Both the position numbers and the translations under genes were made by a program. From Sedimentibacter sp. MB35-C1 (GTDB lineage: Bacteria; Bacillota; Clostridia; Tissierellales; Sedimentibacteraceae), in assembly GCF_030913635.1 (NCBI RefSeq), contig NZ_CP133188.1, forward strand, positions 2,728,001-2,792,000: a stretch of 64,000 nt of DNA, read 5' to 3'. The stretch's first letter is position 1, and each line of letters opens with the position of its first letter. The notes under the pieces are model-generated. The model did no database searches, was not told where the DNA came from, and saw only the letters and a list, made by a program, of their open reading frames with translations. Below, one piece after another: positions 478-28,325 of the stretch.

Positions 478-3538
<3,061 letters not shown>

Positions 3539-3683
3539 TGTTTGTCATTGTTATGTCTTCATAACATTTTTTTTTGGTTAAATTGTATTTATTATTTAAA
3601 ATTTGAATTTAACTAATGTCTTCTCTTTTCATTTTCCTATGCAATTTTCAAAGTTCTGTATCGCTTTAACTTTGTCGTTAAAG

Positions 3684-3759
3684 TGGTGGAGATAAGGAGA
3701 TTCGAACTCCTGACCCCCTGCTTGCAAGGCAGGTGCTCTCCCAGCTGAGCTATACCCCC
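3684..3759 (-). tRNA. tRNA-Ala (anticodon TGC)
   Basis: The minus strand gives a complete cloverleaf beginning GGGGGTATAGCTC, with anticodon TGC and an encoded 3' CCA. It sits in the 16S-23S spacer, a common position for tRNA-Ala. The flanking spacers (3539-3683 and 3760-3880) hold no other gene that I can see; a tRNA-Ile, often its partner, is absent. Confidence 0.96.
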
Positions 3760-3872
3760 ACATTATTTGGTTTTAAAAAGAGCCACTTTATACTGTTAGC
3801 TCAACAGTCTTATTTAAAATACATAATTTTTATTGTTTTTAAATAAGCAATAAAACAGCATAAGTCCTTTAG

Positions 3873-5533
<1,661 letters not shown>

Positions 5534-5673
5534 TTCTTGCTCAAGATAGCGCTTAGCTTATCTTTGTCTTTCTTTACTTTGGTTCTTTAGTTCTTTTTTC
5601 TTTGAACTCTCAAAGGTTTCTTATGCTGTTTTATTGTCTAGGTTCTTCGCTGTTTTTTTGCGACAGCTTGAAT

Positions 5674-13880: not shown

Positions 13881-14084
13881 AAATCTGATAAAAGAAAGGT
13901 AATAGGTGGAATGATTAGATAATTTGCTTTTGATTATGTAAATAATAAATAAACCTGAAATGGTTAATTATTGACACATTATATTGAGAGTAAATTAATT
14001 TCCACACTTTTTTATACAATGCATATTTTTCGTTGTTTATTTTTTGTTTGGTGTTAATTTTCTCTCTTAAGGAGGGATTTTTTT
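13881..14084 (+). promoter_or_regulatory. Structured 5' leader of the ABC-F gene (candidate attenuator)
   Basis: Three segments can pair in two exclusive ways. Segment A (13957-13969, GAAATGGTTAATT) pairs with the right half of B (13993-14002). The left part of B (13986-13998, GAGAGTAAATTAA) pairs with C (14054-14066, TTAATTTTCTCTC) in 12 bp with one mismatch. C ends three bases before the Shine-Dalgarno AAGGAGGG. The A-B hairpin is followed by CACACTTTTTT, like a terminator. A three-codon ORF near the start could sense stalled ribosomes, as in known antibiotic-induced ABC-F leaders. The regulation is inferred. Confidence 0.6.
13911..13922 (+). CDS. Possible three-codon upstream ORF (Met-Ile-Arg)
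   Basis: ATG ATT AGA TAA follows an AGGTGG that could serve as a ribosome binding site, about 30 bases into the leader of the ABC-F gene. Minimal upstream ORFs occur in leaders of some antibiotic-resistance ABC-F genes. By itself so short an ORF is not evidence, and the call rests on its position. Confidence 0.3.
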   Translation: MIR

Positions 14085-15656
14085 ATGTCTTTAATACAAG
14101 TAAACAATTTGACATTCAGATATGAAACAAACTATAAAAATATATTTGAAAATACAACTTTTGAAATTGATACTGACTGGAAACTCGGATTCATAGGAAG
14201 AAACGGCAGGGGAAAAACTACGTTGCTAAAATTGCTTATGGGTATGTATAAGTACAGCGGTAATATAGAGGCTTCTGTAAAGTTTGATTACTTTCCTTTT
14301 GAAGCTGACGTTGAACAAAATACTCTTGAAACCGTAAGAAATATAGTAGCTCCTTTCACTTACTGGGAAAAAGAAATGGACCGATGTATTCGCGAAAAAT
14401 CTGACAGTTCAATTAAAAGATACGGAGAACTGTTGGATTTATATGCCCATAACGACGGATACATTATCAATGAATTAATTGAAAAGGAAATAAGGAAGCT
14501 TTATGTTGATGCGGAAATCCTCTCACGTAAATTCGATACCCTCAGCAGCGGTGAAAAAACAAAAGTCCTGATTGCCGCACTGTTTCTGAAGAAAAACAAT
14601 TTTCTACTTATTGATGAACCTACAAATCATCTGGATTTAGAAGGAAGAAATTGCGTTTCCGAATATCTGAGTCAGAAAAGAGGATTTATATTGGTTTCGC
14701 ACGACAGACATTTCCTTGACTCCTCGGTTGATCACATACTGTCAATAAACAAATGCAGCATCGAAATTCAGAAAGGAAATTTTTCTAGTTGGCAGGAAAA
14801 TAAAAATAGGCAGGATGCTTATGAAATAAATAAAAATGAAAAGCTTAAACGTGAAATTTTTAATCTCGAGGAGTCATTCAGGAGAACATCCGGATGGAGT
14901 GATAAGGTAGAAGCATCTAAAATAGGAGAACACGCCTATGACAGAGGAGCCATAGGACACAAAGCAGCAAAAATGATGAAAAGGGCAAAGTCCATTGAAC
15001 GGCGAAAGCTTAAATCTCTTGATGAAAAGAAAAAGCTTCTCAATAATATTGAACAATTTGATTCCCTTAAAGTAATTCCCAAGTCTTATCATAAGGACAC
15101 TCTTATATATATTGATAATCTAAGTATAAGTTTTAACGGCAGAAAAGTAATTGAGAATGTAGGATTTTCAGTAAGTCAAGGTGATAGAATTGCTTTAAGG
15201 GGCAAGAACGGTTCAGGAAAATCAAGCATATTAAAAGTATTGCTTGGTAAGAATGATTGCTATGGCGGAACCGTCAATATAGGTAGCAACTTGATTATAT
15301 CATATGTTCCGCAAGACACGTCTTTTTTGAAAGGTAGCTTTCAAAATTTCATAAATGACGAAAATATAAATGAAAGTGTCTTCAGAATGTTAATGTCAAA
15401 ATTTGATATGTATTCGGATGATTTCTCCAAAAATTTAGAGGAGTTAAGCGAAGGTCAGAAAAAGAAGGTATTAATTGCCAAGAGTCTGTCAGAAAGTGCT
15501 CATATATATGTTTGGGATGAACCGCTGAACTTTATCGATGTATATTCTAGGATTCAAATACAAGAGCTTATAGAAAATTTCGAGCCGACAATGATTTTTG
15601 TAGAACACGATTATTCTTTCAATGAAACTATATCAACTAAAATAGTAGAACTTTAA
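14085..15656 (+). CDS. ABC-F ribosomal protection ATPase (Lsa-like)
   Basis: This 523-residue protein has two ABC ATPase domains and no membrane segment. Domain 1 has Walker A GRNGRGKTT (38-46), signature LSSGEKTKV and Walker B LLIDEPTNHLDL. Domain 2 has GKNGSGKSS, LSEGQKKKV and VWDEPLNFIDV. A linker of about 80 charged residues joins them, as expected for ABC-F proteins, which enter the ribosomal E site. The opening (FENTTFEIDTDWKLGFIGRN) closely resembles the Lsa group, which protects against lincosamides, streptogramin A and pleuromutilins. It could also be a housekeeping ABC-F. It starts behind AAGGAGGG, with a strong promoter and a long structured leader. Confidence 0.88.
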   Translation: MSLIQVNNLTFRYETNYKNIFENTTFEIDTDWKLGFIGRNGRGKTTLLKLLMGMYKYSGNIEASVKFDYFPFEADVEQNTLETVRNIVAPFTYWEKEMDRCIREKSDSSIKRYGELLDLYAHNDGYIINELIEKEIRKLYVDAEILSRKFDTLSSGEKTKVLIAALFLKKNNFLLIDEPTNHLDLEGRNCVSEYLSQKRGFILVSHDRHFLDSSVDHILSINKCSIEIQKGNFSSWQENKNRQDAYEINKNEKLKREIFNLEESFRRTSGWSDKVEASKIGEHAYDRGAIGHKAAKMMKRAKSIERRKLKSLDEKKKLLNNIEQFDSLKVIPKSYHKDTLIYIDNLSISFNGRKVIENVGFSVSQGDRIALRGKNGSGKSSILKVLLGKNDCYGGTVNIGSNLIISYVPQDTSFLKGSFQNFINDENINESVFRMLMSKFDMYSDDFSKNLEELSEGQKKKVLIAKSLSESAHIYVWDEPLNFIDVYSRIQIQELIENFEPTMIFVEHDYSFNETISTKIVEL

Positions 15657-15810
15657 ATATTGATCGACCTTAAAACTTGCTCTTTATATTCTTTTCACTT
15701 ATTCATTTATTTTTTCTTAGTTATAGTGTATTATTAAAATGATAATACACTATTTTCTTATAACTGTTATTAATTTAAACGGTCGAAGATTAAGAACAGG
15801 CGGTGATATA

Positions 15811-16698
15811 ATGAAATACTTAATAGGTATAGATGCAGGTGGCAGTAAATCTGAGCTTACGGCATATGATTTAAGCGGAAACATACTGTCAGAAATAGCA
15901 GGAGGGGCAGGAAATCCTGCTATAAATCTAGAAAGTACGATGAATAATATTATATCTCTCATAAATAAATGTGCAGCCGAACTTGGAAAAGAATGCATGC
16001 TTATTTCAATTGGGATGGCATCAGTAGAAACTGGGAATTATGTCGAATTAATAAAAAAACATGTGGAAGATACATGTAAAATTGAAACTTTGGTTTTTAA
16101 TGATGGAGAAATGGCTTGTAAAGCATATTTCCAAGAGAATGACGGAATATTGGCAATTGCGGGTACCGGCTCTTCATGCTACGTTCAAAAAAATGGACAT
16201 GGCGAAATGGTTGGAGGCTGGGGGCATATTTTGGGTGATGAAGGAAGCGGATATCATATAGTAATAGAACTGTTCAAGGAGATAATTTATAACATTGACA
16301 AAAATATTGAATTAGATAATTTAAGCGTGCAAGCCCTTAGAGAAATAGGCGGCTCCTCCCGATCCGAAATAATGAATTTCATTTATAATAATGAAAAGGA
16401 CACCATAGCTGCACTGTTCCCAATAATTGCACACTGTGGAGAAAACGGAGATAATCATGCTGAAACGTTGCTGAATACAGCAGGAAAAAACCTTGCAGAA
16501 CTTACCTCCACAGCTTATAAGAAAAAGGGATTTAAAGGGCATATTACTATAGGAATAAAAGGCGGCGTGTTTCACAACAGCATAGTAATAAGACAATCGT
16601 ATATAAATGAGCTTAAGAAACAACTGAAAAGCTTCAGTATAATTGAAAAGGATATTTCCGCAACAAAGGCCGTGCTTTACTTATATAGCAATAAGTAG
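15811..16698 (+). CDS. BadF/BadG-type kinase, N-acetylglucosamine or MurNAc kinase-like
   Basis: This 295-residue ASKHA-fold kinase has phosphate-1 motif GIDAGGSKSELTAYD at the N-terminus, AIAGTGSSCYV as phosphate-2, GGWGHILGDEGSGYHI, and GGVFHNS near the end. This pattern fits the BadF/BadG/BcrA/BcrD family members that phosphorylate N-acetylglucosamine or N-acetylmuramic acid, such as clostridial MurK. That would fit cell-wall sugar recycling, but no sugar transporter or etherase is adjacent. I chose ATG 15811, preceded by AGGCGG and followed directly by the conserved MKYLIGIDAGG, over the 24-residue-longer start at 15739. A shared terminator follows. Confidence 0.85.
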   Translation: MKYLIGIDAGGSKSELTAYDLSGNILSEIAGGAGNPAINLESTMNNIISLINKCAAELGKECMLISIGMASVETGNYVELIKKHVEDTCKIETLVFNDGEMACKAYFQENDGILAIAGTGSSCYVQKNGHGEMVGGWGHILGDEGSGYHIVIELFKEIIYNIDKNIELDNLSVQALREIGGSSRSEIMNFIYNNEKDTIAALFPIIAHCGENGDNHAETLLNTAGKNLAELTSTAYKKKGFKGHITIGIKGGVFHNSIVIRQSYINELKKQLKSFSIIEKDISATKAVLYLYSNK

Positions 16699-16778
16699 TT
16701 ATAAACTCAATCTTCAAAAATAGTTTGTAAATCAGATGTTAAGATATAGCTTTTTATGACAAAATAAAAAATGATATG

Positions 16779-16812
16779 CAAACCACCAGTTCACTACACA
16801 ACTGGTGGTTTG
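16779..16812. terminator. Bidirectional terminator between convergent genes
   Basis: A perfect 13-bp stem CAAACCACCAGTT/AACTGGTGGTTTG with an 8-base loop. On the minus strand CATATCATTTTTTATTTT follows; on the plus strand ATTTTATATTT follows. It ends both the kinase gene and the TRAP/oxidoreductase operon. Confidence 0.9.
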
Positions 16813-16837
16813 ATTTTATATTTGATTCTAAATCACA

Positions 16838-17857
16838 TTATTCGGAAAGTTCCTTTAATTTCATACCATTTTCAGGATCTACTCTAAGAGCACTTTCCCA
16901 TCCCTTTTCATAAGCTAACTTATAATAAGCATCTGCAACATCTGATGGTAAAGTAAGCTCCACCATACCCTCTGCTGTTAATATATCATTTTCATCAGCA
17001 ATTGCTTTTACGTAGTATTCATTCGAAGCGGCTTCAATTTCTTTGCCTGCTTCTACTATTGCATTTTGCTGGTTTTTGCTTAGTTTATTCCAAGCTTTGT
17101 CACTCATCATAATACATACATCTACATTGTAGAAAGCTGGTTGGATTATATATTTAGACACTTCCTGCCATCCAAAATCTTTTACACCTACGCTCGGCCA
17201 TCCATAACCTTGGATAACATTACGCTCCAATGCTTGATATGCCTCTCCAGGAGCAGTATTTACAACACCGGCGCCTAATCCGTCTACGAAGGCTTGGTAT
17301 GCAGGAGTTGCCCTAATAGTCAAACCTTGGAAATCTTCAAGTTTAGTAATTTCATTTTTTGTATACAAATTATATGTTAATCCGTTTGTAGTTGCAGCTA
17401 TATAATGAGCATTAAGTTTATCTTTATATAAGTCTTTAACAAAATCAAATCCTCCTGTTTCTCTCAGTTTTTCTGCATCAGTTAATTTCATTGCTTCCAT
17501 GACAGGAACATGAGAAACATTATAAGTATGAGCTGTCCACGCTATATCTATTATCCCATTTTTTAGAGCTTCAACGAGTTGATAGCTTGGTATTGTCTCC
17601 GGGCCTCCGCCCCATACAACTTCAACTGTACCATTTGTTTTTTCTGACACTTTTTGTGCAAAATCATCCATGTTGAATAAAAGTGTATTACCTTCAGCCC
17701 ATGCGGATGTAACTGCAAGTGTTATCTTTTCATCAGCATTTCCCTCAGGAGAAACTTGTTCACCTAAAGATTGTGCAGGTTTATCGTTTTTTCCGCATCC
17801 AATTATCCCAATTAGCAACGTGATAATCAATAAAAATAGCAAGCCTTTCTTAAACAT
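16838..17857 (-). CDS. dctP: TRAP transporter substrate-binding lipoprotein
   Basis: This 339-residue extracytoplasmic binding protein has a lipoprotein signal ending in LIGIIGC (lipidated Cys21). The mature part matches the DctP family, including the region around ITKLEDFQGLTIRATPAYQ, where the family arginine that binds substrate carboxylate lies (R in TIRATP). DctP-type TRAP proteins capture organic acids, often 2-oxoacids or dicarboxylates, for sodium-driven uptake. It is the last gene of a seven-gene minus-strand operon with both TRAP permeases and a four-subunit 2-oxoacid oxidoreductase. That context suggests a 2-oxoacid substrate, though this is inferred. GGAGG precedes the ATG. Confidence 0.94.
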   Translation of the reverse strand: MFKKGLLFLLIITLLIGIIGCGKNDKPAQSLGEQVSPEGNADEKITLAVTSAWAEGNTLLFNMDDFAQKVSEKTNGTVEVVWGGGPETIPSYQLVEALKNGIIDIAWTAHTYNVSHVPVMEAMKLTDAEKLRETGGFDFVKDLYKDKLNAHYIAATTNGLTYNLYTKNEITKLEDFQGLTIRATPAYQAFVDGLGAGVVNTAPGEAYQALERNVIQGYGWPSVGVKDFGWQEVSKYIIQPAFYNVDVCIMMSDKAWNKLSKNQQNAIVEAGKEIEAASNEYYVKAIADENDILTAEGMVELTLPSDVADAYYKLAYEKGWESALRVDPENGMKLKELSE

Positions 17858-17889
17858 TTTCTTTCCTCCTTATTTTTCAATTAATTTAC

Positions 17890-19197
17890 TTAATATAGAC
17901 TTGGCAACCAAGTAACAATTGGTGGTATTACCGCCATTAAGAGCAACGCCAATACGTCCATTGTAACAAACGGTATGGCTCCGTCATATATATCGCGCAT
18001 TGTTACTTCTGGAGGTGATACTCCCTTCATAGTAAACAGTGCTAGTCCAACTGGTGGAGTAAGTTGACCTATCTGTAAACATATTAGGTAAAGAACTGCA
18101 AACCAAATTGTATTTACTCCTAAACTTATAATTACTGGCATCATAATAGGTAACGTTATCATCATGATTGCTGTTTGTTCCATAAAGAAACCTAGGGCAA
18201 CAATAATCAAAAGCATTGTAGAAATAATTATAAATGGAGACGTTGACATTCCCATTATAGCTACAACAGCTTCTCTACTTGCACCTGTCATAGCTAATAT
18301 TTGACTAAACCCTGCTGAACCTGCAATTATAATCAATACCATTGCAGTTACTTTTAAGGAATCAACCAGAGTTTTGTACACTAATTTCCAAGAAAATTTT
18401 CTATACATAATTGTTAAAATGTAAGAACTTAAAGCACCAATTGCTGCTGCTTCTGTTGGCGTACCTATTCCAGTAAATATAATTCCCATTACAACAAGGA
18501 ATATAAAGATTAAGGGTACAATATCCTTCAACGCTCCTAATAGCATTTCCTTTAAAGTAGAATCTTCTACATTGTATGCCGGTGCCATTTCAGGATTAAT
18601 AATGCATACCACCATAACATATCCAATATACATAGCCATCAATAATACTCCAGGAAGTATTGCACCTATTAATATCTTACCTACTGAAATTCCTGAAATG
18701 CTTCCTAGCAAAACTGCTAATGCACTTGGTGGAATTACCATGGCCAGAGCTCCGGAAGCCATTATTGAACCAGTTATTAATTTCTTTGAATATCCCCTGT
18801 TCATCATTTCAGGAAGCATCAGGGAGCCAAACATTGCCGTGTTCGCAACAACTGAACCGGATAGTGCAGCAAATACGCCGCCTCCAAGTAAAGTAATGAT
18901 ACTTAATCTTCCCGGAACCTTTTTAACGAACTTGGCCAGCGAATCCAGAGTTCTTGACACTAATCCGGATTGATAAAAAACTTCACCCATTATCATAAAA
19001 AACGGTATTGGGGTCAGTGAAAACTGAGCTACTTGATCATACATTCCTAATACAAGCTGACGAATTCCGAATGCACCCTGCATCTTAAACATAATAGCAG
19101 AAGATACAAGAATAAAACTAAATGCAATAGGTAACCCAGTCAGCATTACGGCTACAAGAACAAAGAAAATTAGAACTAATACTAAATACCACTCCAA
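17890..19197 (-). CDS. dctM: TRAP transporter large permease
   Basis: This is an integral membrane protein of about 435 residues with some 12 hydrophobic segments. It is the DctM subunit that moves substrate with sodium ions. Family sequences are visible, such as PFFMIMGEVFYQSG, SGSVVANTAMFGSLMLPEM and GIGTPTEAAAIGALSSY. I chose TTG at 19195-19197 as start because AAGAGGTGA lies five to six bases upstream. The GTG three codons earlier would overlap that Shine-Dalgarno. It is followed by dctP and preceded by dctQ with a gap of about 15 bases. Confidence 0.93.
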   Translation of the reverse strand: MEWYLVLVLIFFVLVAVMLTGLPIAFSFILVSSAIMFKMQGAFGIRQLVLGMYDQVAQFSLTPIPFFMIMGEVFYQSGLVSRTLDSLAKFVKKVPGRLSIITLLGGGVFAALSGSVVANTAMFGSLMLPEMMNRGYSKKLITGSIMASGALAMVIPPSALAVLLGSISGISVGKILIGAILPGVLLMAMYIGYVMVVCIINPEMAPAYNVEDSTLKEMLLGALKDIVPLIFIFLVVMGIIFTGIGTPTEAAAIGALSSYILTIMYRKFSWKLVYKTLVDSLKVTAMVLIIIAGSAGFSQILAMTGASREAVVAIMGMSTSPFIIISTMLLIIVALGFFMEQTAIMMITLPIMMPVIISLGVNTIWFAVLYLICLQIGQLTPPVGLALFTMKGVSPPEVTMRDIYDGAIPFVTMDVLALLLMAVIPPIVTWLPSLY

Positions 19198-19212
19198 ATA
19201 AATCACCTCTTT

Positions 19213-19716
19213 TTAAACTACTTTTTTGTATTTCTTGAACTCTTCATAATCACTAACGAAATTTCTAATGAATTGAATAGTGATAAAGAACATACCTAAC
19301 GGGATAACAATTGTGAGTAACCACTGTGGTGTCCCCATAGAATCCATTACCTTAATTTTGAAATTATAGTTATCTGATACTACTAAATATCCAAAGCAAA
19401 AAATACATGCAGATATAATAGCACCAACAAAATTAACAACCATTGACAAGATATTGTTTACTTTTGTCGGTAAGGCATTTATTAATATGTCGAGATTTAT
19501 ATGCCCTTTATTTTTCAATATCTGAGGTGACCCTAAGAATGTAACGTATAATAAACTGTATGTTGAATACTCAACTAAGTTCGAAAGTGGCTTATTAAAA
19601 ACCACTCTTGAAAAAGTCGAATAACATATACCAATCAGCAGGAAAGCCAAAGCTAATGCTGCAATTCCTGATAGAACTGATATGCAAATATCAATTACTC
19701 GATTAATTGTTTTCAT
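19213..19716 (-). CDS. dctQ: TRAP transporter small permease
   Basis: This DctQ-family protein of about 167 residues has four membrane segments. It contains FSRVVFNKPLSNLVEYSTY and LKNKGHINLDILINALP, matching the conserved KG-H-DI region of small TRAP permeases. It partners DctM. I favour ATG 19716, which has GGGTGATG about six bases upstream; ATG 19731 would add MGDEN but has only a weak ribosome site. The start is within 25 bases of the oxidoreductase beta gene stop, so cotranscription is very likely. Confidence 0.9.
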   Translation of the reverse strand: MKTINRVIDICISVLSGIAALALAFLLIGICYSTFSRVVFNKPLSNLVEYSTYSLLYVTFLGSPQILKNKGHINLDILINALPTKVNNILSMVVNFVGAIISACIFCFGYLVVSDNYNFKIKVMDSMGTPQWLLTIVIPLGMFFITIQFIRNFVSDYEEFKKYKKVV

Positions 19717-19738
19717 ATTTTCATCACCCATTCAATCT

Positions 19739-20644
19739 TTATTCAGACGTATCACAAAGTTTTTTGAGATTATCCCATTTCTCATCAACGTATTCCTGTA
19801 GTTGGGCTATTTGCTCCTCACTAACGTGCTTGTATTTTTTCATTGAATACAAATAATCTTTTAACGAAATGGGGTTCTTAACGTCAATATTCAACTTATA
19901 TTTACCGTTTTCAAATTCGTAAATTGGCATAAATCTTGACTGAACTCCTTTTCTAACAATATCGATACTTTTTTCGGATTCATATCCCCAACCTGTTGCA
20001 CAACTATTGTATATGTGAATATAAGCTAGTCCATTCTTCACATTTTTTGCTTTTTCAATTTTCTTAATTAAGTCAGGCATATATGCCGGTGACGCTGTTG
20101 CCATATAAGGAATTCCGTGTGCCGCCATTATCAAAGGCATATCTTTCTTATGAGATGTTTTGCCGTGACTTTTTGTTCCTACCGGAGTAGTCGATGTCCA
20201 TGATCCTAAAGATGTCGAACTGCTTCTTTGGAATCCGGTATTCATATAACCTTCATTATCATAACAAATGTATATTATATTGTCTCCTCTTTCCGCAGCT
20301 CCTGATAATGCTTGGAAGCCGGCATCTAAAGATGCACCGTCCCCTGCAAATGCAACTGCATTCACATCTCTGCCTATGCGTTCATAATATTTCTTTATTC
20401 CTGTAAGCATAGAGGCAGTATTGTCAAGTAGTGGAAAGAACACAGGAATTTTCATACCGGTCTTATCTGCCCAACCTACACTCTGTACTCCTCCCATGCA
20501 TCCTGGAGGAACTGCTACTATTGTATTAGGTCCTAATATTTGTAATGCTGTTCTCATGGAAAGCTCAACATTGCATCCTAAACAGGCAGTAATGCCAGGA
20601 CCCACCATATCTTCATATGACGCCATTTTTTCTGCTATAGACAT
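19739..20644 (-). CDS. 2-oxoacid:ferredoxin oxidoreductase, beta subunit
   Basis: This 301-residue subunit binds thiamine diphosphate. FAGDGASLDAGFQAL and YICYDNEGYMNTG make the TPP/Mg motif (GDG...N), and conserved cysteines appear in ITACLGCN and PPGCMGG. It matches the beta chain of four-subunit pyruvate or 2-ketoisovalerate ferredoxin oxidoreductases, which convert a 2-oxoacid and CoA to acyl-CoA, CO2 and reduced ferredoxin. Pyruvate and branched-chain substrates cannot be separated by reading alone; the linked butyrate kinase and phosphate butyryltransferase favour a C4-C5 acyl-CoA. It starts at ATG behind AGGGGAG, overlapping the alpha stop region. Confidence 0.93.
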   Translation of the reverse strand: MSIAEKMASYEDMVGPGITACLGCNVELSMRTALQILGPNTIVAVPPGCMGGVQSVGWADKTGMKIPVFFPLLDNTASMLTGIKKYYERIGRDVNAVAFAGDGASLDAGFQALSGAAERGDNIIYICYDNEGYMNTGFQRSSSTSLGSWTSTTPVGTKSHGKTSHKKDMPLIMAAHGIPYMATASPAYMPDLIKKIEKAKNVKNGLAYIHIYNSCATGWGYESEKSIDIVRKGVQSRFMPIYEFENGKYKLNIDVKNPISLKDYLYSMKKYKHVSEEQIAQLQEYVDEKWDNLKKLCDTSE

Positions 20645-20646
20645 AT

Positions 20647-21834
20647 TTATCTCCCCTTTCTGTTAATTAGCCAGTGGGCTCTATTTTCAAGTTGTTTATT
20701 TTCTCCTGCTTTGATAACACTATCCAAAGCTTCAACCATTAGATTAGTTGTCAAGTCTTCTCCGCCTAAACCACCTATGAATGGTACTGTCGGAATAGGA
20801 TCTAAGCTGCTTATAGCGGATTTTATTTCTTGATAAACAATACCTGTGTGCCAGCCAAAGCTTACGTTACGATCTATTACTCCAATTGCTTTAGCATTTT
20901 TAAGGAATTCATTTACCTCATCAACCGGGAATGGTCTTAGTGATCTTATTTTTATAAGTCCGCATTTAACACCTTTCTCCCTTGCCAAATCAACAGCTAT
21001 TCTTGCAGATCCGGTCAAAGAGCCTAATGTTACCAGGACATATTCGGCATCTTCCATTCTATATGGCTCTACAAGCCCAAAATAATCCCTGCCAAATTTT
21101 TTAGCAAATTCATCATTAACTTCCTTAATAACTCTTTTTGCATTATCCATAGCCGCCATATGAAGTTCTCTGTAATATTGCAGATAGTTTCCTGGTGTTA
21201 ACGGGTCAACAGCCATTGGAGTTTCCGGATCAAGCTTCACATGAGTTGGTTTGTATGGAGGTAAAAATGCATTAACTTCTTCCTGTAATGGAACTTCTAC
21301 ACCTTCAGTCATATGTGACAAATAAAACCCGTCATAGCATATATTTATTGGTAATAAAACGTCATTATTTTCCGCAATCTTAAATGCCTGGATAGTCATG
21401 TCTAAAATTTCTTGGTTATCTTCAACATAAATCTGTATCCACCCGGCATCCCTAACCGTAAGTGAATCTTGAGGTCCTCCCCAAACTGATTGAGGTGATA
21501 TCATTTCTCTGTTTACAATATTCATTACTATTGGCAATCTCATTGTAGATGCCCTAAAATATGGTTCATACATTAACGCCAGTCCCTGTGAAGATGTAGC
21601 TGTGAATGTCCTTGCTCCGGCAAGGGAAGCTCCGGTTAATACACTCATAGCAGAATGTTCTGATTCCGGCTCTACGATTGTAGAATCCATTACACCATCT
21701 GCAACATATTGACTAAAATGTTGAACTAATGGAGTTTGAGGTGTTATCGGATATGCAGCTACCACATCCGGTTTTGAAAGAATTGCACCTATAGCTGCTG
21801 CATGGTTTCCATCTAAAACTTTAATATTTTTCAT
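20647..21834 (-). CDS. 2-oxoacid:ferredoxin oxidoreductase, alpha subunit
   Basis: This 395-residue subunit is of the PorA/VorA type. The pyrimidine-binding domain opens with LDGNHAAAIGAI and AAYPITPQTPLVQHFS. VEPESEHSAMSVLTGASLAG contains the conserved glutamates, and TSSQGLALMYEPYFRAS completes the signature. Domain II follows near residue 255 (EYVLVTLGSLTGSARIAV). It forms the active heterotetramer with the adjacent gamma, delta and beta products. It starts at ATG with GGAGGAGCAGGAG upstream and is spaced two bases from beta and a few from delta, so one transcript. Confidence 0.94.
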   Translation of the reverse strand: MKNIKVLDGNHAAAIGAILSKPDVVAAYPITPQTPLVQHFSQYVADGVMDSTIVEPESEHSAMSVLTGASLAGARTFTATSSQGLALMYEPYFRASTMRLPIVMNIVNREMISPQSVWGGPQDSLTVRDAGWIQIYVEDNQEILDMTIQAFKIAENNDVLLPINICYDGFYLSHMTEGVEVPLQEEVNAFLPPYKPTHVKLDPETPMAVDPLTPGNYLQYYRELHMAAMDNAKRVIKEVNDEFAKKFGRDYFGLVEPYRMEDAEYVLVTLGSLTGSARIAVDLAREKGVKCGLIKIRSLRPFPVDEVNEFLKNAKAIGVIDRNVSFGWHTGIVYQEIKSAISSLDPIPTVPFIGGLGGEDLTTNLMVEALDSVIKAGENKQLENRAHWLINRKGR

Positions 21835-21836
21835 TT

Positions 21837-22097
21837 CTACTCCTGCTCCTCCTTAATATATTCAATAGCTTTTGCAGGACATTCATGAATACACACACCA
21901 CATCCTTTACAAAATTCTAAATCAATATGATAACTTCCATCAATTAACTTAACAGAATTGGTTGGACAATACAATAAACACATTCCGCATTTTTTACATT
22001 TATCGTGCTGTATAACTGGTGGATAAACTTTCCAGCTGCCGGTATTGATAATATTCAATTCCTTTCCTACAGCACATATAAAGTCAGTTTTAATCAT
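21837..22097 (-). CDS. 2-oxoacid:ferredoxin oxidoreductase, delta (ferredoxin) subunit
   Basis: This 86-residue subunit carries two [4Fe-4S] clusters bound by CKKCGMCLLYCP and CKGCGVCIHECP. They pass electrons from the TPP site to external ferredoxin. I chose ATG 22097 because GGAGGT lies eight bases before it; the ATG five codons upstream is part of that Shine-Dalgarno. The start overlaps the gamma gene by eight bases, giving translational coupling. Length is usual for PorD. Confidence 0.94.
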   Translation of the reverse strand: MIKTDFICAVGKELNIINTGSWKVYPPVIQHDKCKKCGMCLLYCPTNSVKLIDGSYHIDLEFCKGCGVCIHECPAKAIEYIKEEQE

Positions 22098-22647
22098 GAA
22101 TAATACCTCCATTCACTTCCTTTATAACAACATTATTATATCCGCACTTCAACGCATCAAGGTTCTTAGAGCCCCAAATCTCCTGAGTCTTCTCACTAAC
22201 CTTATCAAAGCTTACCCAGTTTGTTGCTTTGACAAATGCACCTAACACAATAGTGTTTGGCAATAATCTTCCAAATATCTTCATTGAAGCAGAATTTGCG
22301 TCTATGTAAGCCACTTTAGTTATATTTTTAGGGATTTTAATTTCTTCAATTGTTTTAGAGTTAATAATAAGTATAGCGTTTTCCTTTGCTCCAACAAAAA
22401 CATCTACACTATTTAGCAGCGATGGGTCAATTACCATTATGCAGTCTGGATTGTAAACTTGGTTTTTTTCTCTTATTTTCTTTTCATCAATTCTTACAAA
22501 GGCGCTAACTGGGCCACCTTTTTTTTCAAACCCAAAATAAGGAAAACAGGCGCCAAATTTACCATCTTGAACTGCAGCATATACAATTATCTCAGATGTA
22601 GTAACAGCCCCTTGTCCTCCTCTTCCATGAATTCGAATTTCTTTCAT
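22090..22647 (-). CDS. 2-oxoacid:ferredoxin oxidoreductase, gamma subunit
   Basis: This 185-residue subunit begins with the family signature IRIHGRGGQGAVTTSEI. FGACFPYFGFEKKGGPVSAF and VRIDEKKIREKNQVYNPDCI are also typical of PorG. It is the first gene of the minus-strand operon gamma-delta-alpha-beta-dctQ-dctM-dctP. The 230-base region before it is shared with a divergent Crp/Fnr regulator and holds an 18-bp palindrome, a candidate operator. Start is ATG with AAAGGAG at somewhat long spacing. Confidence 0.93.
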   Translation of the reverse strand: MKEIRIHGRGGQGAVTTSEIIVYAAVQDGKFGACFPYFGFEKKGGPVSAFVRIDEKKIREKNQVYNPDCIMVIDPSLLNSVDVFVGAKENAILIINSKTIEEIKIPKNITKVAYIDANSASMKIFGRLLPNTIVLGAFVKATNWVSFDKVSEKTQEIWGSKNLDALKCGYNNVVIKEVNGGIIHD

Positions 22648-22719
22648 TATAAATCACTCTCCTTTACTTTTTTAATAATCTTAAATATAAACTTTGTAAT
22701 ACTATAAATTATTGTTTAT

Positions 22720-22737
22720 TTATAAAATGGTTTATAA
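22720..22737. promoter_or_regulatory. Candidate Crp/Fnr-type operator
   Basis: TTATAAAATGGTTTATAA is a perfect 7-4-7 inverted repeat in the intergenic region between the oxidoreductase operon and the crp/fnr-like gene. Its half-site length and spacing resemble Crp/Fnr operators, and the divergent regulator is the obvious candidate to bind it. AT-rich palindromes do arise by chance, so this is an inference. Confidence 0.45.
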
Positions 22738-22813
22738 GCCACTTTTTTAAAGTGTAAATATTCTATCTTCGCATTCAAACCTAATTTGATAAACTCCGTT
22801 TTAACAAGTAATG

Positions 22814-22842
22814 TTTACAATTTATACTCTATCTTCTATAAT
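22814..22842 (+). promoter_or_regulatory. Promoter of the Crp/Fnr-like regulator
   Basis: TTTACA (22814-22819), a 17-base spacer and TATAAT (22837-22842). The expected start near 22849 leaves a short leader before GGAGGTG and the ATG at 22878. Confidence 0.72.
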
Positions 22843-22877
22843 TAATATTAACTTGTATATAAATTGGAGGTGTTTCA

Positions 22878-23603
22878 ATGCTCAATAAGTCTCTTTGGGT
22901 TATCGAAGACAAAAATATTCAAGAAAAAATAATCAAGTATTCTAAAAATATTCGCCATTTCCGCAAAGGTAACTTAATTTTTCAGCAAGAAGATATAAGA
23001 GATTGCCTATATTTTCTAACCGAAGGTAGAGTCAGAGTAAGTATTTCAAATTCCAGTGGCTCCGAAAAAACCCTTGCCGTTCATGAGCCCGGTTCATTCT
23101 TTGGCGAAACAGCTTTCTTTGATGAAGACCCAAGTTTTACTTATGCTGAAGCTCTTAAAGATTCTACCCTGGTTGTTTTAAACAAAGAACAATTTACAAA
23201 GATGATGAAGGATGACCCAAATCTTGCCTTCAACATATTTAATTCTATGGGCAGAAAAATTCGGCTACTTTCATATCAGGTAAAATATCTTTCTTTCATG
23301 AAAATTGAAGAAAGGTTAATGTCATTATTAATAACATTGTTCTTAACAGTTGGCACAAAATGTTCTCGTGATGCTATATGCAAAGTAAAATCCTCCAAGT
23401 TTAATGGTTCATGCGCTAATGGCCATATCTTAGATTTAACAATTACCGATCAAGAAATAGGGGACATGATTAGTGCTAGGAGAGAAGCTATAACCAAAGC
23501 CATAAATAATTTAAAAAATCAAAAATTAATATATAAAAACAAAAGAACAATCTGTTGTCCTAATCTATCACTTTTAGAAGAACTCCTTTCTAACTTGGAA
23601 TGA
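22878..23603 (+). CDS. Crp/Fnr-family transcriptional regulator
   Basis: This 241-residue regulator has a cyclic-nucleotide-binding-like beta barrel at about 25-125 (GNLIFQQEDIRDCLYFLTEG, PGSFFGETAFF), a dimer helix and a C-terminal winged helix-turn-helix (LTITDQEIGDMISARREAIT). An insertion-like stretch at about 158-187 between helix and HTH holds C162, C168 and C179, and C216-C217 follow near the end. These could bind a metal or iron-sulfur cluster, which would suit a redox-responsive switch, but that is inference. It is divergent from the 2-oxoacid oxidoreductase/TRAP operon and upstream of buk-ptb, so it probably controls this island. Confidence 0.9.
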   Translation: MLNKSLWVIEDKNIQEKIIKYSKNIRHFRKGNLIFQQEDIRDCLYFLTEGRVRVSISNSSGSEKTLAVHEPGSFFGETAFFDEDPSFTYAEALKDSTLVVLNKEQFTKMMKDDPNLAFNIFNSMGRKIRLLSYQVKYLSFMKIEERLMSLLITLFLTVGTKCSRDAICKVKSSKFNGSCANGHILDLTITDQEIGDMISARREAITKAINNLKNQKLIYKNKRTICCPNLSLLEELLSNLE

Positions 23604-23642
23604 GTAAAAACCGTATCTATATAATGACACATTTATTTTTAT

Positions 23643-23676
23643 AAAACTGTGCTAATTAACACAGTTTTGTTTTTTA
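23643..23676 (+). terminator. Terminator of the regulator gene
   Basis: Perfect 9-bp stem AAAACTGTG/CACAGTTTT with an 8-base loop, followed by GTTTTTTAT. It separates the regulator from buk, so buk-ptb needs its own promoter. A TATAAT at 23680-23685 lacks a clear -35 box, which would fit an activator-dependent promoter. Confidence 0.85.
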
Positions 23677-23738
23677 TACTATAATAAATTATTTGAAGAT
23701 GGATTAAAATTGATTTTGAAGGGAGCTAAAACATATCT

Positions 23739-24812
23739 ATGAATAATTTGTTATTGATTATGAATCTTGGCAGCACATCAACAAAAGTTGCAATTTATAA
23801 AAATATGGAATGCCTTCACCAAGATACTTTACGTCATGATAAGGATGCTGTATTTCGTGCAATAAACGATATTTGGGACCAATATGATTTTAGGAAAAAG
23901 GTTATCACTGACTTTGTATTTAAGTGTAATTACAATCTGTCAGACTTTGACTACATAGTATCCAGAGGAGCACCGGTAAAAGCAATGAACAGCGGCACTT
24001 ACAAGATTAACGAGTCCATGGTAAATGATGCAAAAAGCAGGCTTTATGGAAACCATCCCTGTGGTGTAGGTTGTGCAATTGCTTTAGATTTAGCTAACAA
24101 ATTAAATATATCCGCATTAACCGTCGATGCACCTTGTATTGACGAATTCATACCTCAATCTCGATATACAGGATGGAAGGATGTTTATCGCAAAAGTTTC
24201 TACCAAGCTTTGAACCAAAAATCTGTAGGTAGAAAAGTAGCAAATGAACTTAATAAAAGCTACAATGACTTGAATGCAATTATAGTGCATATGGGAGGAG
24301 GCATGTCCATAGCTGCTCATCATAAGGGCAAGGTTGAAGATGTCAATAATGGCTTGGATGGTGATGGCCCTATGGCTCCTGAAAGAGCAGGAACATTGCC
24401 TGCCGGCGAGGTCCTAAAATATGCGTATTCAGGCAAATATACTTATGAGCAGTTGTACAAAATGGTTAATGGTAAAGGCGGACTATATCAATTATTAGGA
24501 ACTACGGAATGTAGAGATATCGAAAAATTGATAGCTAATGGAGATGAAAGCACAAAAGAAGTATATGATGCTATGATTTATCAAATAGCAAAAAGTATCG
24601 GGGCTGCTGCAATTACACTTAAAGGTGAAGTAGATGCCATTGCCTTTACAGGAGGATTAGCTTACTCAGAGTATATAATAGATGAAATTTCTAAATGGTG
24701 TGGCTTTATTGCACCCATACACTTATTCCCGGGAGAAAATGAAATTGAATCTCTTGCCGAAGGTGCTATGTTAGCAATTCAGGGTAAATGGTCAATTCAA
24801 CATTATGAATAA
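23739..24812 (+). CDS. buk: Butyrate kinase (acyl kinase)
   Basis: This 357-residue ASKHA kinase matches butyrate or branched-chain acyl kinases. It has phosphate-1 motif NLGSTSTKVAIY, the conserved IVHMGGGMSIAAH, DGDGPMAPERAGTLP, and AFTGGLAYSEYI near the end. It transfers phosphate from butyryl-phosphate or isobutyryl-phosphate to ADP, giving ATP and the free acid. With ptb 30 bases downstream it forms the usual energy-conserving pair. The ribosome site GGGAG lies 13 bases from the ATG, which is long, so translation may be modest. The regulator and oxidoreductase context suggests use with acyl-CoA from the 2-oxoacid oxidoreductase. Confidence 0.94.
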   Translation: MNNLLLIMNLGSTSTKVAIYKNMECLHQDTLRHDKDAVFRAINDIWDQYDFRKKVITDFVFKCNYNLSDFDYIVSRGAPVKAMNSGTYKINESMVNDAKSRLYGNHPCGVGCAIALDLANKLNISALTVDAPCIDEFIPQSRYTGWKDVYRKSFYQALNQKSVGRKVANELNKSYNDLNAIIVHMGGGMSIAAHHKGKVEDVNNGLDGDGPMAPERAGTLPAGEVLKYAYSGKYTYEQLYKMVNGKGGLYQLLGTTECRDIEKLIANGDESTKEVYDAMIYQIAKSIGAAAITLKGEVDAIAFTGGLAYSEYIIDEISKWCGFIAPIHLFPGENEIESLAEGAMLAIQGKWSIQHYE

Positions 24813-24841
24813 AAACAAAAAGATACTGGAGGAGATTTTAT

Positions 24842-25741
24842 ATGATTAAATCATTAGATGATGCACTATACGTAGTTTCCAATCGTCCAAAAAAAACTAT
24901 AGCAGTTGCACAAGCAACTGACAAAGATATACTGCAAGTTACTGATATTGCAATAAGAAAAAATTTAGCAAATTTCATTTTTATTGGAAATAAAGAAACA
25001 ATTACAAATATGATCGAAGAAGGCAAATACGATCTCAAACATGTAGAAATAATTGATGCCGATAATGATACTCTATGTGCTGCAAAGACTGTGGAATTAG
25101 TTAAAAAAGGTATGGCTGATATGCCTATGAAAGGATTGTTGCCAACATCAACTTTTATGAAAGCTGTTTTAGACAAAGAAAAGGGACTTCGTTCAGATAA
25201 ATTAGTGTCTCAAATAACTGTAACAGATAATATTCATGGAACCGGGCTGAATTTTATAACCGATTGTGCAATGAATATTTCACCGGACCTCAATGCTAAA
25301 AAAGAAATACTTCAAAATGCAGTCTACTTGGCAAAGAAAATGGGATTAAAATGCCCAAAGGTTGCAGTTTTAACGGCTTTAGAAACTGTCAATCCGGCAA
25401 TGCCTGAAACTATGGATGCAGCAATACTAAGCAAGATGAATGAACGTGGCCAAATAAATGGTTGTATTGTAGACGGTCCCTTTGCTCTTGATAATGCAAT
25501 TTCTTTAGAATCAGCAATGCATAAAGGAATCAAAGGTGAAGTTGCAGGAAATGCAGATATACTCTTAGTTTCTGATATTCGAATGGGAAATGTATTGCAT
25601 AAAGCAATAACTTATTTTGCTAACAAGCGAGTTGGTTCAGTGATAATTGGTACGACAATCCCCTTAGTTATGACATCACGGTCTGACTCGGTTGAAGATA
25701 AGTTAATATCCATTGCGCTTTCAAGCTTTCTTATACATTAG
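24842..25741 (+). CDS. ptb: Phosphate butyryltransferase
   Basis: This 299-residue enzyme of the phosphate acetyl/butyryltransferase family exchanges CoA of butyryl-CoA (or related acyl-CoA) for phosphate. Family sequences visible are MKGLLPTSTFMKAVLDKEKG, VTDNIHGTG-like substrate region and VAGNADILLVSDIRMGN near the end. It feeds acyl-phosphate to the adjacent kinase. GGAGG precedes its ATG and it shares a transcript with buk. Order buk-ptb is the reverse of the ptb-buk order in Clostridium acetobutylicum. Confidence 0.94.
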   Translation: MIKSLDDALYVVSNRPKKTIAVAQATDKDILQVTDIAIRKNLANFIFIGNKETITNMIEEGKYDLKHVEIIDADNDTLCAAKTVELVKKGMADMPMKGLLPTSTFMKAVLDKEKGLRSDKLVSQITVTDNIHGTGLNFITDCAMNISPDLNAKKEILQNAVYLAKKMGLKCPKVAVLTALETVNPAMPETMDAAILSKMNERGQINGCIVDGPFALDNAISLESAMHKGIKGEVAGNADILLVSDIRMGNVLHKAITYFANKRVGSVIIGTTIPLVMTSRSDSVEDKLISIALSSFLIH

Positions 25742-25849
25742 GCTAAAATTAATCAACAAACTGTTAAAACCCTGATTTTTAAATTCTTTTCTAATGTAAC
25801 AAATGTAATTTATACAACAATTCCGTATTTTTGCTTTCAGGCACTCATT

Positions 25850-25890
25850 AAACTCCTCATTTTAATAATAATCATCAAAATGAGGAGTTT
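25850..25890. terminator. Terminator between ptb and mutS2
   Basis: Perfect 14-bp stem AAACTCCTCATTTT/AAAATGAGGAGTTT with a 13-base loop, between convergent genes. The U-tracts are short (TTTAATTT) but the stem is strong in both directions. The 108 bases before it hold nothing else. Confidence 0.78.
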
Positions 25891-25896
25891 AATTTA

Positions 25897-28275
25897 CTAT
25901 TTAAATGTTACAATTGTTACGCCGTCTCCGCCCTCGTTGAATGTGCCCAGCCTGGATGACTTAACATGCTTGTGTTTTTTCAAAAATTGTGTTACTCCTT
26001 CTCGCAATATTCCCATTCCTTTGCCGTGAATAACCTGAACCTCGTTTAAATTTGACATGAAAGCATCATCCAAGTATTTATCCAGTTCGAGAAGTGCTTC
26101 CTCAAGATTAAGTCCCCTCAAGTCAACAACGGGGTTAATAGAAGATGTTTTCAACTTAATCATTCTTGATGTTCTTGTTTTCTGCTTCTCCTCTTCATCA
26201 GATTTAATTTTAACTAAATCAGCTTTCTTAACCTTCATTTTCATAATTCCAACTTGAACCATTACATTTTGAGAACTGTCAACATCTGAAATAATGTGTC
26301 CCTTCTGATTAAGATTTTTCACCAGGACAGCATCTCCATTTGATAGTTCCGAATTTTCGTCATAATTATCATCATTGAAAATTTGTTCCGTATATTGATT
26401 TTCATTTAGTTCCTTTGTCTTTTCATTCAGGCTCTGCCTCAGATCGTTAATGCGCCGTACCTTGTCCTTATCCATATCCACATTCATTTTCCTGAGCTCT
26501 TTAATAATTTCTGATGCTTCTTTCTTAGCATTTTCAACAATTCTTCTTGCTTCATAATTTGCATCGTTTATCATTTTTTCGCTCTTCTCAAGAGATTTCC
26601 TCTCTTTAGAAATGAAGCTTGAATGTTTTTTCTGGCTCTCTTCGTTCAGCCTGTCAATTTCATGTTTTTTTTCTTCAATATATATGCGTCTTTCCTCAAT
26701 TTGCCTCAGTGCGTCTTCAAATTCAACCTTATCAGTTTCTATAGTTTCCCTTGCCTTATCTATTATTTCCTTACCTAATCCCAGCTTCTTAGATATTTCA
26801 AATGCATTGGATTTTCCAGGAACGCCTATTAGTAGCTTGTATGTAGGGCTTAGAGTTTCAACGTTAAATTCCACGCTTGCATTAATAACACCTTTTTTTG
26901 TAAGTGCATATAGCTTAAGTTCACTATAGTGTGTCGTAGCAGCAGTCACTATTTTTCTGTCAAGGAGGGTATCCAAAATAGACGTAGCTAGCGCAGCACC
27001 CTCAGTTGGGTCAGTTCCTGCTCCCAACTCGTCAAACAAAACGAATGATTTTTCATCCACTTTGCGCAATATTTTAACTATGTTGGTCATATGAGATGAA
27101 AATGTACTCAAGCTTTGTTCAATGCTTTGCTCGTCACCTATATCTGCAAACACCGAGCTAAAAACAGATATTTCCGTGCCGTACTCTGCAGGAAGATGAA
27201 GCCCTGCCATTCCCATCAAAGTAAAAAGCCCCAGTGTTTTAAGTGAAACGGTTTTTCCACCTGTATTTGGTCCTGTAATTATAAGTGTGGTGAATTCATC
27301 TCCCAAATAAGCATCTATGGGAACAACAACCTTTGGATCAATCAACGGATGTCTTCCCTTTTTAATACGAATATATCCTCTGTCGTTAATTTTAGGCTCT
27401 ATTCCATTTATGCTTATGGCAAACTTACCCTTTGCAAATATAAAGTCTAACTCTGTTAATATATCTTGGTTTGAAACCATTTCAGATGAAATATCTCCTA
27501 TCATCCCGCTTAATTCAAGTAAAATTCTTTCAACTTCCTTTTTTTCATTAACCTTTAAATCAGTAATATCATTTGTCATTTCTACAATAGCCATTGGCTC
27601 TATAAAAATAGTAGAGCCTGTTGATGACTGGTCGTGTACGATACCTTTAACCATAGCTCTATATTCTTTTCTGACAGGAATTACATATCTGTCATTCCTC
27701 ATTGTAACAATTGTTTCTTGAAGATATTTCTGCATAGCAGATGATCCCACGATTTGATTTATTTTATTTTTTATGGAATTCTGCTTAACTTGTATTTCTC
27801 TTCTTATTCGTTTCAGTTCAGGGCTGGCATCATCTGCTATTTCTTCTTCGCTTATTATTACGTTATAGATACGTTCCTCTGTTTCCTTATTTACGTATAT
27901 GTCAGAACATAGTTTTTCAAGCGTTTCATAATATGAGTCATCTTTGTTATTTAAGATAACATAATTTTTTATTAATCTGCCTGCTCTAAGGGTATCTGCA
28001 CAGTTCAATAAACCCCTCAGAGAAATTATTCCGCCAACCGATCCTCTTTTTACATATTCTTTTATATCAGTAATTCCTCCCATGGGAGGATTCCCTTTTT
28101 CTATTATAATTGAAAGTGCTTCTGCCGTTTGCTTCTGCATAAATTTCACGCTATCTATATCAGATGAAGCGTCCAATTTTTTTACATATTTTTTTCCATT
28201 TACAGTTTCCGCAAACTCTGTGAGCTTCTCAATTATTTTATTAAATTCCAAAACCGATTTTGTTTTTTCCTTCAT
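25897..28275 (-). CDS. mutS2: MutS2 ATPase/endonuclease
   Basis: This 792-residue protein has the MutS core and clamp at 1-310, Walker A GPNTGGKT at 335-342, Walker B region FVLFDELGAGTDPTEGAA, and a long coiled coil at about 520-630. A C-terminal Smr domain starts near 710 (VDLRGLNLEEALLELDKYLD, VIHGKGMGILREGV). MutS2 does not do classic mismatch repair; it suppresses recombination and, in Bacillus, acts on collided ribosomes. Full length for the family. ATG lies behind AAAGGAATG. It is followed, after about 50 bases upstream, by the U32-family gene in the same direction. Confidence 0.96.
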   Translation of the reverse strand: MKEKTKSVLEFNKIIEKLTEFAETVNGKKYVKKLDASSDIDSVKFMQKQTAEALSIIIEKGNPPMGGITDIKEYVKRGSVGGIISLRGLLNCADTLRAGRLIKNYVILNNKDDSYYETLEKLCSDIYVNKETEERIYNVIISEEEIADDASPELKRIRREIQVKQNSIKNKINQIVGSSAMQKYLQETIVTMRNDRYVIPVRKEYRAMVKGIVHDQSSTGSTIFIEPMAIVEMTNDITDLKVNEKKEVERILLELSGMIGDISSEMVSNQDILTELDFIFAKGKFAISINGIEPKINDRGYIRIKKGRHPLIDPKVVVPIDAYLGDEFTTLIITGPNTGGKTVSLKTLGLFTLMGMAGLHLPAEYGTEISVFSSVFADIGDEQSIEQSLSTFSSHMTNIVKILRKVDEKSFVLFDELGAGTDPTEGAALATSILDTLLDRKIVTAATTHYSELKLYALTKKGVINASVEFNVETLSPTYKLLIGVPGKSNAFEISKKLGLGKEIIDKARETIETDKVEFEDALRQIEERRIYIEEKKHEIDRLNEESQKKHSSFISKERKSLEKSEKMINDANYEARRIVENAKKEASEIIKELRKMNVDMDKDKVRRINDLRQSLNEKTKELNENQYTEQIFNDDNYDENSELSNGDAVLVKNLNQKGHIISDVDSSQNVMVQVGIMKMKVKKADLVKIKSDEEEKQKTRTSRMIKLKTSSINPVVDLRGLNLEEALLELDKYLDDAFMSNLNEVQVIHGKGMGILREGVTQFLKKHKHVKSSRLGTFNEGGDGVTIVTFK

Positions 28276-28325
28276 TGTACATTCCTTTCGTAATGTTCAT
28301 AAAGTTCCAAATTGCTTACAACTTT

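Follow-up and report, generated by a model that had tools for sequence, protein, structure and literature searches.

A ten-gene cassette of Sedimentibacter sp. MB35-C1 that may import a 2-oxoacid, possibly an arylglyoxylate, and ferment it with ATP formation

Clustered genes for a 2-oxoacid oxidoreductase, a phosphate butyryltransferase (Ptb) and a butyrate kinase (Buk) are known from Clostridium scatologenes as the HpdDEFG/HpdJ/HpdK trio, published in 2026; in the available part of that paper (PMC13285125), the three steps are reconstituted with p-hydroxyphenylpyruvate as the 2-oxoacid, by homologues of the enzymes discussed below. Another described relative is PadEFGHI, the NADH-forming phenylglyoxylate dehydrogenase of denitrifiers. 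Here we analyse a cassette of ten genes that resembles both, at positions 16838-25741 of a 64,000-nucleotide stretch of Sedimentibacter sp. MB35-C1 (contig NZ_CP133188.1, positions 2,728,001 to 2,792,000; the window hereafter). Like Hpd, it clusters a four-subunit 2-oxoacid:ferredoxin oxidoreductase with Ptb and Buk, and would gain ATP from a 2-oxoacid while reducing ferredoxin. In the available text of the same paper, Hpd is fed from tyrosine and the HpdE-type oxidoreductase groups with the 2-ketoisovalerate oxidoreductases (VORs, cluster 3), whereas the cassette has an oxidoreductase on the PadG side (presumably cluster 6, which holds PadG; HpdE was not compared directly) and a built-in TRAP importer and Crp-type regulator. 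TRAP transporters are not mentioned in the main text of that paper.

Ten open frames fill the region, and none appears broken. An earlier note on this DNA had assigned families to these genes, and Pfam and NCBIfam profile searches bore the assignments out (Table 1). Seven frames run leftward from the centre in the order gamma, delta, alpha, beta (the oxidoreductase), DctQ, DctM and DctP, and three rightward, coding for the Crp-type regulator, the Buk-family kinase and the Ptb-family transferase. The leftward genes are spaced as in an operon, by 2-32 bases, except that gamma and delta overlap by 23 bases; the gap from crp to buk is 135 bases. The P, Q and M components of the importer are all over their Pfam cut-offs.

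The source genome is a single contig of 3.62 Mb. Among 25 genomes of the genus, the nearest is G015, judged by mutS2 (97%) and nagK (92%), the two genes flanking the cassette, and in G015 their matches lie 63 bases apart on one contig. With blastn, window positions 13901-16705 matched positions 344-3155 of the G015 locus L180 (94.7%), and positions 25851-28311 matched 3158-5621 (94.4%). The alignment stops at 16705 and resumes at 25851, leaving 9,145 bp extra in the window, which hold the ten genes and no others; either the source genome gained them or G015 lost them. The G+C content of the cassette is ordinary (0.352 versus 0.354), and none of its ten genes encodes an integrase.

A neighbourhood search, which the earlier note had proposed, found the ten genes in identical order in G008 (L049), Youngiibacter fragilis (L071) and G226 (L157), each time in different surroundings: five genes flanking the cassette in the window gave a single match in these loci, an ABC-domain protein in L049 with 23% identity. 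The alpha subunits are 94, 90 and 85% identical to that of the window, in the order just given, whereas mutS2 of G008 is 82% identical, which fits transfer between lineages. The Crp-type regulator of G008 is less similar (75%). Because the unit recurs in three other genomes and its empty site has exact borders, it is beyond chance, and we consider it confirmed that the ten genes are a real island, as the earlier note had claimed, and supported that they are inherited as one unit.

The function of this unit, that is, its enzyme activities, their direction, the co-regulation of its arms and its substrate, is predicted from homology and conserved context. DctPQM would import a 2-oxoacid, which the gamma-delta-alpha-beta enzyme would convert, with CoA and 2 oxidised ferredoxins, into acyl-CoA, CO2 and 2 reduced ferredoxins. 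The Ptb-type enzyme would then make acyl phosphate from acyl-CoA and phosphate, and the Buk-type kinase would use it to phosphorylate ADP; the products would be ATP and a carboxylic acid, the latter leaving the cell. Both arms would be under the control of the Crp-type regulator. This general scheme, already put forward in the earlier note, is probable and appears to be the most economical reading; the available part of PMC13285125 describes the enzyme trio as reconstituted for tyrosine fermentation. The likeliest substrate would be an arylglyoxylate, for example phenylglyoxylate (benzoylformate), passing through benzoyl-CoA and benzoyl phosphate to benzoate, in which case Ptb and Buk would accept the aroyl-CoA and its phosphate. 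For an aromatic substrate we stop just short of an even balance, and the whole statement, a mobile ten-gene catabolic cassette with an arylglyoxylate-type substrate, is held a shade more tentatively still.

The oxidoreductase carries much of this argument. Its alpha subunit matched PadG best and PorA_Arch next (Table 1), ahead of the archaeal 2-ketoisovalerate model (350 bits, cut-off 646) and VorB (117 bits, cut-off 399), and PadI was the top model for beta. All members of an Hpd-type trio are in the cluster, with an oxidoreductase that, judged by the VorB model, falls outside the VOR/HpdE group. We built a tree of 54 alpha subunits, made of 38 of 80 loci that were the best among the relatives listed, the window, 14 rows from a set of genomes and Acetoanaerobium; L053, L060, L065, G033, one G040 match, L157, L158, L153, L171, L174 and L176-L179 stand outside it, and L064 forms a very long branch. 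The window falls into a clade of 23 rows with support of 100/100. The clade includes L072, a PadH-bearing operon of a Deltaproteobacteria metagenome-assembled genome, and does not group with the pyruvate synthases. L072 is Pad-like in its alpha subunit (519 bits), PadH (403, cut-off 475) and extended PadI of 437 aa (644, cut-off 700), and downstream of it lie a DctP gene, whose product is 43-45% identical to that of the window, DctQ and DctM; a LarA-family racemase, below cut-offs, adjoins the operon. Of 15 relatives scored, 10 had PadG as first model (L071, L050, L072, L073, L080, L074, L146, L157, L177, L178) and 5 had PorA (L062, L052, L131, L171, L174). A plasmid protein search with alpha gave 58 records, and none of the 25 listed was named Pad. 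Finally, residue 120 is Gly or Ser in all 23 clade rows and Asp or Glu in all 31 others, and residue 110 is Glu or Asp in the clade and Ala, Thr, Ser or Gly outside it. Both sit in a loop close to a conserved arginine, which we take, from the pyruvate enzymes, to lie at the substrate.

The same data bear on pyruvate, or aliphatic 2-oxoacids in general, as the substrate, the cassette then being one more way to ferment pyruvate or 2-oxobutyrate. PorA_Arch is the second-best alpha model, the nearest solved oxidoreductase is the pyruvate enzyme 9bt4 (330 bits, followed by oxalate oxidoreductase with 243), and DctP relatives in G359 and G435 adjoin PorA-side oxidoreductases. We nevertheless judge this route improbable: the alpha subunit fails the pyruvate synthase cut-off of PorA_Arch, its clade stands apart from the other 31 rows at 100/100, the active-site loop is altered throughout the 23 clade rows, and the genome has two long frames of the pyruvate:ferredoxin oxidoreductase type, of 1187 and 1197 aa, as well as a full-length gene of the acetate kinase family.

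The importer is linked to the oxidoreductase. Of the 249 genomes searched within the order, 3 contain a DctP relative (E<=1e-45) and 7 the oxidoreductase (E<=1e-112, a threshold that gives no clean clade border and admits the PorA-side G359); the 3 genomes with DctP all carry both, at a distance of about 3 kb. For a phylum sample of 398 genomes, the corresponding counts were 6 and 8, with both present in G000 and G359. A full oxidoreductase adjoins DctP in G000, G359 and G435, that of G435 being more distant (45%). Importer and oxidoreductase go together. By far the closest solved relative of DctP is Bpro_4736 of Polaromonas (4mnc/4mni; Table 1), which was reportedly solved with benzoylformate, the same compound as phenylglyoxylate; the structure titles and literature searched did not confirm this ligand. 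A structure predicted from four sequences is poor (mean pLDDT 58.5) and indicates a DctP-type fold only. With this model, Foldseek put 4mnc first, at about 30% identity, whereas VIA-align ranked it 23rd (Z 15.8, 24-25% identity) and placed SiaP at the top (Z 17.0). On pBAM2, a plasmid for the degradation of 2,6-dichlorobenzoate, a DctP relative (31.6%) lies near a ring-hydroxylating dioxygenase. R182 of DctP is invariant in four relatives and aligns with an arginine of 4mnc, Arg-147 of SiaP being outside the comparison; the available part of PMC4646407 describes a conserved carboxylate-binding arginine in TRAP binding proteins.

Neighbouring genes were compared for 35 loci; labels came from blastp against a custom reference set, so some genes may have escaped labelling, and the view is limited where contigs are short, as for L051, L153 and L158. 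In Dorea sp. D27 (L080, 5952-14163), a Pad-side oxidoreductase stands with a Nit6803-type nitrilase and a dehydrogenase of the lactate/malate dehydrogenase type, both below cut-offs, and with Ptb and Buk. This set would suit a conversion of mandelonitrile through mandelate and phenylglyoxylate into benzoate with a gain of ATP. The Pad-side locus L178 has a dehydrogenase of the ketopantoate reductase type next to Buk and Ptb; D-mandelate dehydrogenases occur in that family. The neighbours at L080, L178 and L072 fit 2-hydroxy- or 2-oxoacids, and the pBAM2 dioxygenase may likewise speak for an aromatic substrate, each being weak when taken alone.

A number of results weigh against an arylglyoxylate. 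PadG leads PorA by only 29 bits, alpha and beta are both under the 700-bit cut-offs of PadG and PadI, the cassette has no PadH gene, and beta (301 aa) covers positions 141-439 of the 443-long PadI model, without its N-terminal domain. The enzyme is therefore not Pad as defined, and unlike Pad its acceptor is presumably ferredoxin. The tree holds no characterised PadG. As for the importer, no oxidoreductase was found near DctP in the stretches fetched from G457 and G554, two of the six phylum-sample genomes, and G575 has only a gamma-like frame there. Among the compared stretches of Pad-side loci, TRAP genes occur only in the four units and L072. At L171 (G359) and L174 (G435), where DctP is 32-34% identical, the oxidoreductase is PorA-side (525 versus 355 and 481 versus 305 bits), which means that DctP proteins of this family go with other oxidoreductases besides Pad-side ones; for this reason we lowered the aromatic assignment a little, from evenly balanced. 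An Ldh_2 gene (L174), a BenE-type transporter (L171) and a ketopantoate-reductase-type gene (L062) stand beside PorA-side enzymes, and at L173 a D-isomer 2-hydroxyacid dehydrogenase lies beside a DctP without oxidoreductase, so these genes back 2-oxoacids generally and not aromatic ones.

L062 (2530-15997, G008) combines a UbiD-type decarboxylase, an IclR regulator, a PorA-side oxidoreductase, the ketopantoate-reductase-type dehydrogenase, another TRAP transporter, Ptb and Buk. Here the same plan has been realised once more, with diverged components.

The earlier note had suggested 2-oxoisovalerate or a similar substrate. That a branched-chain 2-oxoacid takes the same route would agree with the preference for propionate, isobutyrate and isovalerate of a kinase of the same family, from C. 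difficile cluster 3a, given in the available part of PMC13285125. We regard it as very improbable, and 2-oxoisovalerate as unsupported, given the VorB score above and a VorB-type enzyme with its own Buk and Ptb elsewhere in the genome. Four further butyrate-kinase-type genes were found in the genome (L043-L046, near 425215, 2559617, 2630975 and 1340914). One is partnered by this VorB-type alpha subunit (540 bits, cut-off 399) and Ptb, another by a 2-oxoacid:acceptor alpha subunit (538, cut-off 411) and Ptb, and another by an alpha subunit of indolepyruvate:ferredoxin oxidoreductase (705, cut-off 651); the remaining one has Ptb alone beside it. These loci are parallel 2-oxoacid fermentation modules, and since the cassette adds another oxidoreductase type to the set, 2-oxoisovalerate is doubted further.

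The cassette kinase passes the butyrate kinase cut-off, whereas the transferase fails the phosphate butyryltransferase equivalog model and stays within PTA_PTB (Table 1). The four cassette kinases form a group of their own (100/100), separate from the eight other kinases compared. The pathway could also run backwards: the cell would import a carboxylic acid, spend ATP on its activation and turn it by reductive carboxylation into a 2-oxoacid from which amino acids are made. According to the available text of PMC13285125, all steps of the homologous Hpd pathway are thermodynamically reversible. Among the relatives, L075 and L076 carry an AMP-forming ligase and L079, L081 and L082 a CoA transferase, exceptions that we concede. 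Several other relatives, however, adjoin ADP-forming synthetases or Ptb/Buk, and catabolism is the better fit for a mobile cassette of patchy occurrence that brings along an importer and a local regulator, so that we give this reversal very little credence. Like the cassette, L050, L176, L171 and L174 set an oxidoreductase beside an ATP-yielding acyl-CoA step, L171 and L174 with a related TRAP transporter as well; unlike it, they use an ADP-forming synthetase instead of Ptb and Buk.

CprK-type sensing of an aromatic acid was considered for the regulator; CprK chains matched it with 33-35 bits and were outscored by many other chains, the best of which reached 62. Scans of the region gave 42 promoter matches versus 40.5 in shuffles and 6 terminators versus 5.5. 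As these counts are at shuffle level, we use only the stem-loop with T run between crp and buk, which is conserved in 4 of 4 units. It suggests either a terminator or attenuator that would separate the right arm from crp, or a Crp-type operator. The motif TGTG-N8-CACA, a candidate Crp operator, occurs twice in the window, and at least two were reached in 14 of 100 shuffles; a palindrome scan did not find it between the divergent arms in any of the four units. The terminator or attenuator is therefore as likely as the operator. Outside the cassette, window positions 14085-15656 encode an ABC-F protein, with 451 bits for the general ribosomal-protection model (cut-off 380) and 642 for Lsa, below its cut-off of 750.

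Table 1. Features of the cassette region; positions are those of the window.
Feature	Position	Strand	Evidence
Cassette, 9,145 bp	16706..25850	.	not at orthologous site of G015 (blastn)
DctP, TRAP solute-binding protein, 339 aa	16838..17857	-	PF03480 120 bits; top match among solved structures 4mnc/4mni with 169 bits, second 55
DctM, TRAP large permease	17890..19206	-	PF06808 260 bits; TIGR00786 292, cut-off 268
DctQ, TRAP small permease	19213..19731	-	PF04290 86 bits
Oxidoreductase beta, thiamine diphosphate (ThDP)-binding, 301 aa	19739..20644	-	PadI 381 bits (cut-off 700), PorB 309; GDG...N ThDP-type motif
Oxidoreductase alpha	20647..21834	-	PadG 487 bits (cut-off 700), PorA_Arch 457.5 (cut-off 550); clade with Pad-like L072, 100/100
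Oxidoreductase delta, 2[4Fe-4S] ferredoxin type	21837..22112	-	TIGR02179 84, cut-off 60; two CxxCxxCxxxC motifs
Oxidoreductase gamma	22090..22647	-	TIGR02175 187, cut-off 81
Divergent promoter region (predicted)	22648..22877	.	gap between divergent gene runs; promoter-like matches no more than in shuffles
Crp/Fnr-family regulator, 241 aa	22878..23603	+	PF00027 87 bits, PF13545 37 bits; kept in 4/4 units
Stem-loop ACTGTG-N8-CACAGT then T run, between crp and buk	23641..23670	+	terminator scan; same palindrome, loop changed, in L049, L071, L157
Acyl kinase, butyrate kinase (acetokinase) family	23739..24812	+	TIGR02707 414, cut-off 289; PDB 1saz/1x9j butyrate kinase 2, 304 bits
Phosphotransacylase, Ptb (PTA_PTB) family	24842..25741	+	PF01515 149 bits; TIGR02706 354.7, below cut-off 410.5

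One of the four units stands next to a bacterial microcompartment (BMC) locus. In G226 (L157, 477-4944), shell genes, a class-V pyridoxal phosphate (PLP) enzyme and a hydantoinase-family amidohydrolase are directly followed by the ten genes, at the position taken in G015 by a sister oxidoreductase together with an acyl-CoA synthetase of the ADP-forming type. The whole set of shell genes, PLP enzyme, amidohydrolase, sister oxidoreductase and ADP-forming synthetase is present in G015 (L050, 4277-8845) and G356 (L176, 11258-15264); L069 and L077 have it without the PLP enzyme and with an HpcH/HpaI-type aldolase. We considered the purine (Xau) compartment as a candidate for these loci; for that compartment the available part of PMC6620236 names xanthine dehydrogenase, formimidoyltransferase and others. 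Loci of unassigned function are listed by Axen et al. (PMC4207490) and Sutter et al. (PMC8217296), as seen in the available parts of both; the term 'ferredoxin oxidoreductase' is absent from the main text of the latter.

These loci raise the possibility that the pathway is as proposed and its substrate a 2-oxoacid made in the microcompartment by the PLP enzyme and the amidohydrolase, which the compartment-less source organism would take up from others; it could still be an arylglyoxylate, for example one that bears an amino group left by ring opening. We know of no pathway for that compartment. Besides the arrangement in G226, hydantoinase-family genes at seven compared loci with such oxidoreductases (L050, L157, L158, L069, L077, L176, L073) speak for it, one of them archaeal and without BMC genes in the 10 kb compared, and no PF00936 shell match was found in the source genome, G008 or Youngiibacter. 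That clade oxidoreductases at L050, L157, L176, L069 and L077 adjoin shell and hydantoinase-family genes is a further point against an arylglyoxylate, and the class-V PLP enzyme at L050, L157 and L176 hints at a nitrogen-containing precursor. The compartment is present, however, in only 1 of the 4 unit-bearing genomes, and in G226 the transferred unit may have come to lie next to it by chance. We therefore hold this origin of the substrate to be unlikely, if worth keeping in mind; were it so, the oxidoreductase may burn the compartment product in some organisms while the source organism lives on the same acid from outside. The archaeal locus L073 (Archaeoglobaceae) also has, at 6316-9654, a ribonucleotide reductase frame with an intein bearing a LAGLIDADG domain.

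The literature searched, of partial coverage, gave no description of such a cassette, and the available part of PMC6776118 has no such cluster. The earlier note had called the joining of these genes into one locus unusual. This holds in part: clusters of oxidoreductase, Ptb and Buk are widespread in anaerobic Firmicutes according to the available text of PMC13285125, but a TRAP importer inside the cluster is rarer, though also found in L072, L171, L174 and L062. The chemistry and the trio are known; what is new is another oxidoreductase clade, the built-in importer, the mobility and the place beside a microcompartment in G226. A more far-reaching formulation, in which a self-contained transferable fermentation cassette of importer, ferredoxin-reducing arylglyoxylate oxidoreductase and aroyl-phosphate kinase gains ATP from acids of the benzoylformate type, needs no other pathway and in G226 is joined to the microcompartment locus, is conceivable, though we rather doubt it.

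If the general scheme is true, an anaerobe needs no more than ten genes, movable as a unit, to draw ATP and low-potential electrons from a 2-oxoacid in its surroundings. An aromatic substrate would make the cassette the fermentative, ferredoxin-linked and ATP-forming counterpart of the NADH-linked Pad enzyme, and the oxoacid burned by the G226 cassette would identify what the linked compartment degrades. The substrate is directly testable, as kinase, binding protein and transferase are simple to express, and the answer would bear on similar oxidoreductases whose names merely come down from pyruvate enzymes.

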